Shown here: positions 1,091-1,279 of the stretch, in pieces | Position numbering within the stretch: position 1 is the stretch's first letter | Layout: the number at the start of each line of letters is the position of its first letter | Assembly: GCA_030753265.1 (NCBI GenBank) | Contig: JASMCQ010000021.1 | Location: 1 to 7,750 of the forward strand | Source: Dehalococcoidia bacterium | GTDB lineage: Bacteria > Chloroflexota > Dehalococcoidia > UBA3495 | DNA length: 7,750 nucleotides | Direction of reading: 5' to 3' | Notes under the pieces: model-generated | Seen by the model: the letters and a program-made list of their open reading frames with translations, nothing else | Told to the model about the DNA's origin: nothing | The model's database searches: none | Made by a program: the position numbers and the translations under genes

Positions 1091-1123
1091 ACAACAAAAC
1101 ACCCCAACCGCTGCCGGTTGGGG
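1091..1123 (-). terminator. attenuator: intrinsic terminator hairpin in the DAHP synthase leader
   Basis: On the minus strand CCCCAACCG (1123-1115), loop GCAG (1114-1111) and CGGTTGGGG (1110-1102) form a perfect 9-bp GC-rich stem. It is followed directly by TGTTTTGTTGT, a T-rich but interrupted tract. An outer helix AAACACC (1134-1128) with GGTGTTT (1103-1097) could extend an inner 7-bp version of the stem. The hairpin lies about 120 bases after the promoter and about 100 bases before the structural gene, with no complete large gene between. It therefore fits a premature terminator rather than the end of an operon. A competing pairing is listed separately. Confidence 0.8.
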
Positions 1124-1190
1124 TCTTGGTGTTTCCGGGAATCTTGTTCTAGGTCATCTGTTTTCGGGCACCAAACCTCGGCCGGCAGCG
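1109..1190 (-). promoter_or_regulatory. antiterminator pairing of the aromatic leader
   Basis: CGCTGCCGG (1190-1182), inside the leader ORF, is perfectly complementary to CCGGCAGCG (1117-1109), which spans the terminator's 5' arm, loop and start of its 3' arm. Nested inside, GGTTTGGTG (1177-1169) pairs with CACCAAGACC (1131-1122) with one bulged G. The two helices are separated by a 4x4 internal loop and enclose a loop of about 37 bases. This fold excludes the terminator. A ribosome stalled at codons 8-13 would leave the 5' arm free, while one that reaches the stop codon (1156-1154) would disturb it. Seen directly: the complementarity. Inferred: its regulatory use. Confidence 0.7.
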
Positions 1191-1246
1191 CTGGAGCCAG
1201 TAAAAAGCCAGTAATACCCGTAAAACCGGTGTGAACTGATCATCAT
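1154..1246 (-). CDS. aromatic-amino-acid leader peptide (30 codons)
   Basis: A small ORF of 30 codons starts with two ATG codons (1246 and 1243) and ends with TGA at 1156-1154. Codons 7-15 read RFYGYYWLF, so six of eight consecutive codons from 8 to 15 are aromatic (Phe8, Tyr9, Tyr11, Tyr12, Trp13, Phe15). The rest (for example GSSAAGRG at 17-24) has no such bias. Position, size and residue run match leader peptides that sense charged tRNA in ribosome-mediated attenuation, as known for trpL and pheL. The product itself probably has no function. The downstream half of the ORF encodes the 5' arm of the antiterminator. There is no Shine-Dalgarno, because the promoter -10 directly precedes the ATG, so translation from a leaderless transcript is likely. 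The mix of three Tyr, two Phe and one Trp suits the first common enzyme of the pathway. Confidence 0.82.
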   Translation of the reverse strand: MMISSHRFYGYYWLFTGSSAAGRGLVPENR

Positions 1247-1251
1247 TATAG

Positions 1252-1279
1252 ATAATACCGCTAATTTCGCGGTTGTCAA
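1252..1279 (-). promoter_or_regulatory. promoter of the leader and DAHP synthase gene
   Basis: The minus strand has a perfect -35 TTGACA (1279-1274), a 16-base spacer, and -10 TATTAT (1257-1252). Initiation would be expected near 1246-1243, which coincides with the two ATG codons of the leader ORF. A TATAAT at 1250-1245 is better as a hexamer but is 23 bases from TTGACA and has no -35 at the right distance. If it were used, the leader start codons would be lost. Confidence 0.75.

Follow-up and report, generated by a model that had tools for sequence, protein, structure and literature searches.

The window, that is, the whole 7,750-nucleotide stretch of DNA analysed here, holds between its pyrD and aroF genes what is, with a probability of about 0.88, an attenuator that controls transcription of aroF through a translating ribosome, like those of trpL, pheL and aroR. 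Both the kind of attenuator and its target had been proposed in an initial annotation, and they are borne out by codon conservation in the closest orthologues and by covariation of the stems. The genes of the window, namely part of rpoB (TIGR02013), rpoC, pyrD and aroF, lie on the minus strand, as do all window features described below. The lineage is Chloroflexota of the Dehalococcoidia/SAR202 type: among the best 120 database relatives, identity is 99% for the window's own entry and 85–71% for the others, and the named ones are Chloroflexi, Dehalococcoidia or SAR202. Such bacteria are mostly uncultured and known chiefly from genomes. The gene behind the terminator, claimed beforehand to encode a DAHP synthase, is indeed aroF (1–990, cut by the window end), a type I-alpha 3-deoxy-7-phosphoheptulonate (DAHP) synthase according to NF009395 (473.5 bits), TIGR00034 (442.8 bits) and PF00793; its start codon is the ATG at 990, preceded by a Shine-Dalgarno-like AAGGGGAG (998–1005).

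The pyrD ORF ends at 1387, upstream of the aroF leader region, and the gap between the two genes contains a promoter (1279–1252), a 30-codon ORF (1246–1154) and a 10-bp terminator (1124–1101) with a T-rich tail. The sigma-70-type promoter consists of TTGACA (1279–1274) and TATTAT (1257–1252) separated by 16 nt, matches the consensus at 11 of 12 positions, and is the only promoter-like match in 950–1400 (mean of 0.1 in shuffles); a similar arrangement precedes the leaders of many relatives. The interval first assigned to the element, 1091–1257, does contain it apart from the −35 box, which was omitted. The leader ORF MMISSHRFYGYYWLFTGSSAAGRGLVPENR (30 codons plus TGA), including the previously described RFYGYYWLF at codons 7–15, has its first ATG 5 nt and its second ATG 8 nt past the −10 box, and its position and aromatic content are conserved in relatives. 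Judging from this spacing, the leader mRNA is probably leaderless or nearly so, its 5' end lying on the start codon or very close to it. Codons 8–15 (F Y G Y Y W L F; 1202–1225) are the putative control codons: six are aromatic, with two Phe, three Tyr and one Trp in the 12-codon core, F, Y and W interchange in relatives, and the predicted switch point lies directly past codon 15. The window thus shows a hallmark of such attenuators, a small ORF packed with codons for the amino acids that the controlled pathway makes.

Downstream of the control codons, four RNA segments form alternative stems. Region 1 (CTGGC, 1196–1200), located in the Thr-Gly codons 16–17, pairs with region 2 as a protector hairpin (1:2) according to pair counts. 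Region 2 (GCTGCCGGCCGAGGTTTGGTG, 1169–1189), which comprises codons 20–26 (AAGRGLV), is the 5' strand of the antiterminator on the basis of nascent-RNA prediction and pair counts, and region 3 (CACCAAGACCCCAACCGGCAGC, 1110–1131), supported in addition by three-way substitutions, is its 3' strand and includes the 5' arm and loop of the terminator. The intrinsic terminator hairpin (3:4; 1101–1124), identified by sequence, folding and pair counts, reads ACCCCAACCG-GCAG-CGGTTGGGGT with a GCAG loop and is followed by the T-rich tail GTTTTGTTGT (1091–1100). The perfect stem with a T-rich tract reported initially is thus present, with a length of 10 rather than 9 bp. With its flanks, the hairpin preceding GTTTTGTTGT has a folding energy of −20.7 kcal/mol, and none of 40 shuffled versions of the DNA that follows the window leader gave an equally good hairpin with a T-run. 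The antiterminator and the terminator share the strand 1124–1110, making the two stems mutually exclusive.

For the aroF leader, the direct results are which parts are present, how they are conserved, where their substitutions are paired and what energetics are predicted; from these we infer the start site, the stalling, the termination and the signal as follows. Transcription would start at or a few bases from the leader ATG, and a ribosome would load straight onto the 5' end. When the charged form of tRNA-Phe or tRNA-Tyr, or for this species also of tRNA-Trp, runs low, the ribosome would pause in codons 8–15 and mask region 1 (codons 16–17), leaving region 2 (codons 20–26) free to pair with region 3 (terminator 5' arm and loop), and RNA polymerase would continue into aroF. 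When the aromatic amino acids are plentiful, the ribosome would reach the stop codon and mask or clear region 2, the 3:4 hairpin would form, and transcription would terminate before aroF.

The conservation of this arrangement was assessed at orthologous loci. A search of 147 relatives of the L001 genome located aroF in 103, and the DNA upstream of the gene was compared jointly with further Chloroflexota loci, giving 108 unique loci including the window, 107 of them with enough upstream DNA; L097, with only 170 nt before aroF, was left out of the 107-locus statistics. The further loci came from a set of 80, of which 68 were left out of all counts as not, or not clearly, Chloroflexota, among them L007, which shows no leader. 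A promoter directly followed by an aromatic ORF (TTGA[CA]N, 16–18 nt, a −10-like box, 3–10 nt, a start codon and at least three aromatics in 12 codons) occurs at 42 of the 107 loci versus 5 of 2,140 dinucleotide-shuffled upstream regions. Its frequency by tblastn identity is 20/26 (at least 62%), 9/27 (58–62%) and 13/54 (below 58%), and at 41 of the 54 loci of the last class no near-leaderless aromatic ORF was found. Aromatic density exceeded that of shuffles (p ≤ 0.05) at 21/26, 13/27 and 13/54 loci in the same classes, and on the reverse strand, taken as a control, six aromatics in 12 codons were reached at 0 of 107 loci.

Upstream of the closest orthologous aroF genes, the aromatic codons are conserved, a comparison that the initial annotation had put forward: leader and terminator are both present at 25 of the 28 unique loci whose tblastn identity rounds to at least 62%, the exceptions being L092 (short leader), L097 (truncated) and L113 (none shown). 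In L095, the leader is in place with few aromatic codons. The short L092 leader, MISRFYYGPRAVCLFA, carries a terminator-like hairpin inside the ORF directly after FYY, and it is possible that a stalled ribosome would occlude this hairpin directly. For structural analysis, 31 leaders were picked by eye, comprising the 25, L116 and five of a second leader type (family B). All 31 have a terminator 21–44 nt past the stop codon, and 0 of 1,240 shuffles reached the observed score. The aromatic run varies among relatives (FYGYYWLF, YGYWYFF, YGYYYYFF, YGYFGYFFYF, WFYAYYYF), and the FTG and AAGxGLV codons on its 3' side are better conserved than the run itself. Among the 26 family A leaders, the 12-codon core contains Phe in all 26, Tyr in 25 and Trp in 11. 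As to the claim that the leader senses all three aromatic amino acids, what is shown is codon content, with all three present in 10 of the 26 cores; by its codons, Trp is optional in these leaders.

The partial conservation of the peptide (FTG...AAGxGLV) would also suit a nascent-peptide arrest, in which the leader chain, perhaps with a free aromatic amino acid, stalls the ribosome in place of hungry codons. TnaC is an example of nascent-chain arrest with a free aromatic amino acid, and some ORFs of other clades do carry conserved endings directly before their stop codon (SYSYR, FYPGR and YGRSYRS). Within the aromatic stretch, however, F, Y and W are free in order and number, as would be expected of codon sensing; regions 1 and 2 fall on the conserved FTG and AAGxGLV codons, so that RNA pairing can account for the latter; and the pheS copy described below has retained Phe codons, not the peptide. 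Arrest by the peptide is accordingly considered very improbable.

The stems required by the attenuator reading were evaluated by counting pairs on a MAFFT alignment, in which the inner antiterminator strand is misaligned in a few rows (e.g., L091 and L002). In the 26 aligned leaders, 91.9% of the terminator cells are paired (at most 51% in shifted registers) with two-sided changes at 5 of 10 pairs; 29 of 500 shuffles matched this number of two-sided pairs and 0 of 500 matched the percentage or the covariation score, in controls that, for all stems, leave kinship among rows uncorrected. The protector, formed by the Thr-Gly codons and region 2, is paired in 87.4% of cells (shuffles 1/500; at most 57% in shifted registers), with two-sided changes at 4 of 5 pairs (shuffles 40/500). 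For the antiterminator, 64.8% of cells are paired, compared with at most 46% in shifted registers, and 8 of 17 pairs show two-sided changes. Its percentage and covariation score lie above all 500 shuffles, and the number of two-sided pairs (240/500) and the pair types (435/500) show no excess over them. The covarying stems that were looked for on the strength of the initial annotation are thus seen as paired substitutions in terminator, protector and antiterminator, least in the last; the evidence for the antiterminator is weaker than that for the terminator, and its covariation is the least strong among the stems.

A position common to antiterminator and terminator (columns 71-146-157) was followed through the 26 rows. 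It reads G-C-G in 13 rows and A-T-A in three, the latter with both partners altered jointly; both pairs are kept via G-T in five rows, and in the five rows with G-C-A or G-C-C the terminator pair is broken. In a swap test within family A, region 2 formed a more stable duplex with region 3 of the same leader (−24.0 kcal/mol) than with that of other leaders (−20.5 kcal/mol), and 0 of 5,000 permutations were as good. In family B, which offers five very similar rows, the own pairing was no better than the foreign one (4,839 of 5,000 permutations as good).

These stems also bear on the idea that the aromatic ORF is a coincidence and the hairpin an ordinary terminator, one that might serve the rpoBC-pyrD transcript. 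The stem is palindromic enough for terminator calls on both strands, and the pyrD ORF does end upstream. Nevertheless, the promoter sits between the hairpin and pyrD, leader segments covary with the terminator strands, and an aromatic ORF a few nucleotides past a promoter recurs far above the shuffle level in the 107-locus comparison; coincidence is therefore even less probable than peptide arrest. Least probable of all is a metabolite riboswitch, T-box or protein-bound leader in which the ORF has no role, since, despite the presence of alternative stems, an Rfam scan of the window gave no match at gathering score and two chance-like sub-threshold matches in 980–1400, and the conserved features are codons positioned relative to the stems.

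The attenuator reading was further examined by folding at defined ribosome positions, with the RNA downstream of the ribosome left free to fold and the equilibrium probability of the terminator, P(terminator), computed for each A-site. In the window, P(terminator) is predicted to be 0.00–0.08 with the A-site at the aromatic codons of 8–15, to rise to 0.87 once the A-site reaches codon 16, and to be 0.94 with the ribosome on the stop codon; the control codons are thus placed such that a stall would free region 2. The switch edge lies between codons 15 and 16, and footprints of 8–15 nt move it between 13 and 17, those of 13–15 nt leaving the last aromatic codon, F15, on the terminating side. Stalls at the non-aromatic codons 4–7 also give low values (0.00–0.16), so specificity must derive from which codons stall. 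With a stall at Tyr12, an equally low P(terminator) was obtained in 1 of 300 synonymous recodings.

Across the 31 leaders, the predictions are less uniform. An equilibrium fall in P(terminator) of more than 0.3 upon stalling was found in only 12; for the leaders lacking this switch, the model needs the antiterminator to win kinetically, by forming first. When folded ribosome-free, 27 of the 31 are predicted to terminate with P > 0.5, and the window is not (P 0.026). The nascent RNA before the terminator 3' arm is more stable than dinucleotide shuffles (z < −1) in 25 leaders; six, of which L107 is the worst, do not reach this value. In L095 the stall was set at Trp23, past region 2, where z is not meaningful, and moving the stall to the other aromatic codons of this leader gave P(terminator) values down to 0.09. 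Compared with synonymous recodings, the minimum free energy (MFE) of the nascent RNA shows no excess stability (78% as low or lower for the window; 2 of 31 leaders at ≤5%). Because synonymous recoding gives folds of equal stability, a plain appeal to MFE in favour of the antiterminator was abandoned, and the case for this stem is based on pair counts and P(terminator).

To assess specificity, a covariance model built from the aroF leaders (R1) was searched in the 147 genomes at E ≤ 0.001, yielding 42 matches in 40 genomes. Forty of the 42 lie directly upstream of aroF, 16 of these 40 in genomes outside model building. The two matches away from aroF are one partial and one full-length, the latter in G016 upstream of pheS (E 3e-15). 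At E ≤ 1 in 32 chosen genomes, many weak matches appeared, mostly of the terminator part; four were inspected, and in G117 and G141 the best match lay away from aroF. Among 301 genomes across the phylum (E ≤ 1e-4), R1 matched in five, two of the five matches being partial, so the exact RNA belongs to the group around G001.

The pheS copy of G016 (L234:1467–1625, upstream of pheS, TIGR00468, at 1704–2762) has promoter, antiterminator and terminator segments that align with the aroF leader of the same genome. In its ORF, MCNTSITNFFTRFRFIG, Phe is the sole aromatic residue, and region 2 lies behind the stop codon; no equilibrium switch was predicted, P(terminator) being 0.95–0.96 at every codon, and here too the model needs a kinetic advantage of the antiterminator. 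This copy suggests that the RNA switch may be portable and that altered codons would alter its sense. Upstream of pheS in relatives, aromatic density was raised (p ≤ 0.05) at 1 of 29 loci, that of G016, and such a leader was not found at the other 28 loci tested; a Phe leader at pheS as a rule was rejected in favour of a single capture. Aromatic density upstream of trpE was at shuffle level (p ≤ 0.05 at 0 of 17 loci in 16 relatives). A Trp or aromatic leader at trpE was likewise rejected as unconvincing, as ORFs with two Trp occur at 3 of 17 loci and none of the 17 exceeds shuffles.

The phylum-wide R1 search also led to L270, where the leader MVSVTSSKYYSYFTFTGA (L270:1501) stands before the gene for a DAHP synthase of type I-beta (PRK08673/TIGR01361; PF18152 also matches). 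This protein was matched in 50 of 61 relatives. In the best 25 I-beta loci (L270 included; L274–L298), at least five aromatics in 12 codons were found at 24, aromatic density exceeded shuffles (p ≤ 0.05) at 19, and terminator-like hairpins with T-runs were visible by eye in the six inspected. By these leader sequences, the shikimate entry enzyme appears to be preceded by an aromatic leader in both DAHP synthase subfamilies, through common descent or repeated origin.

Leader-like ORFs of other composition were observed as well. Upstream of acetolactate synthase (ilvB), there are Leu/Val/Ile-rich ORFs, e.g., ...ERVFVLITGSRR... and ...LLGLLIQPRRG followed by the stop codon (L273 ~1470–1580; L299–L322), with a density of at least 7 at 12 of 25 loci as a raw count without shuffle control and, in L273, a clear hairpin with a T-run. 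At L235 (~1170–1320), a frame resembling a leader, NQTLCCCCCCLTGVRG, contains an unbroken run of six Cys codons and is accompanied by a terminator-like hairpin; the ORF behind it has no Pfam match. Upstream of aroF in L121, L124, L127, L129, L120 and L125, an ORF ending in ...FTRRGSASYSYR or similar extends over the stop codon of a chorismate mutase gene of the AroH type (TIGR01796 in L121, the locus in which the family was tested) and has, by eye, a G+C-rich stem around its own stop codon; these leaders may use a different mechanism, by occlusion or arrest. Other aroF-upstream ORFs contain Tyr/Phe and end in YGRSYRS, FYPGR, RRRRA or similar (L008, L012, L014, L141 and L043; L135, L137 and L139; L174, L178 and L037), and no obvious terminator was seen there by eye.

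Considering the aromatic leaders at the I-alpha and I-beta enzymes, the putative branched-chain leaders at ilvB, and the Phe-only leader at pheS and the six-Cys leader, each of the last two seen once, it seems fairly probable that Chloroflexota generally control amino acid pathways by leader-peptide ribosome-mediated attenuation, often on leaderless or near-leaderless transcripts. Attenuation of this sort is familiar above all from Proteobacteria and Actinobacteria; it would then be widespread in Chloroflexota as well, and leaderless initiation may ease its evolution there. The interest of the system lies in the aromatic leaders at both DAHP synthase subfamilies together with the pheS copy. 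It offers a cis-RNA family that can be put to the test, since its positions in the genomes are known. It also offers a natural experiment in a single genome, whose pheS is preceded by an aroF-leader-like RNA in which Phe is the sole aromatic residue.

In line with the initial statement that no such leader was known from this lineage, the matches listed in open-access full texts, a scope that lies outside most subscription papers, include no Chloroflexota case of leader-peptide attenuation, and the open-access matches listed include no account of leader peptides controlling the shikimate entry step in Dehalococcoidia, whether SAR202-like or not. In the matched passages of a Chloroflexi paper, "leader peptides" denotes protein-export signals (PMC4959651), and in those of a 2005 study no RNA elements for phenylalanine or tyrosine are reported from Actinobacteria (PMC1262725). 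In Shewanella, candidate cis-RNAs precede the DAHP synthase genes aroF and aroH, as at the present locus, and the aroF one is tabled as an attenuator sensing Tyr-tRNA (PMC2659441); unlike the Chloroflexota RNA, they belong to Gammaproteobacteria, and the matched passages describe no mixed aromatic leader.

The aroF leader resembles the enteric pheL-pheA, pheM-pheST and trpL systems in its leader ORF, its 1:2, 2:3 and 3:4 stems and its terminator, and pheM-pheST also in that pheS is a target here too, once (L234). The enteric systems read one amino acid each, their targets are terminal-branch genes or a tRNA synthetase, and their leaders, in contrast to the aroF leader, have Shine-Dalgarno sites. 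Attenuation at pheA, pheST and trp is mentioned in passages of a review (PMC11802643). In excerpts on the ilvBNC attenuator of Corynebacterium glutamicum, the leader peptide is made without a ribosome binding site (PMC11857589; title of reference 42 in PMC4046766), and several amino acids depend on the operon, the second feature being shared with the element described here and the first probably so; the ilvBNC attenuator differs in serving branched-chain amino acids in Actinobacteria.

The nearest counterpart is the aroR leader of the aroF attenuator of C. glutamicum, reportedly described by Neshat et al. in 2014. The excerpts that treat it describe aroR as a Phe-Tyr-Phe leader peptide before the DAHP synthase gene aroF, acting by ribosome-mediated attenuation (PMC11802643, PMC4046766), and the review passage reports an effect of Phe limitation, not of Tyr (PMC11802643). 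The likeness thus extends to an aromatic-codon leader peptide before a DAHP synthase gene under ribosome-mediated attenuation and probably, as far as those excerpts go for C. glutamicum, to leader peptides that lack a ribosome binding site or stand on leaderless transcripts. The difference is that aroR is actinobacterial and has three aromatic codons, whereas the Chloroflexota leaders have up to eight in 12, with Trp in some; the Chloroflexota RNA, which has no Rfam match, is set beside the aroR RNA by description, not by homology comparison. With aroR as precedent and a classical mechanism, a leader-peptide attenuator of DAHP synthase is not new as such; what is new here is the phylum, the RNA family and its spread.
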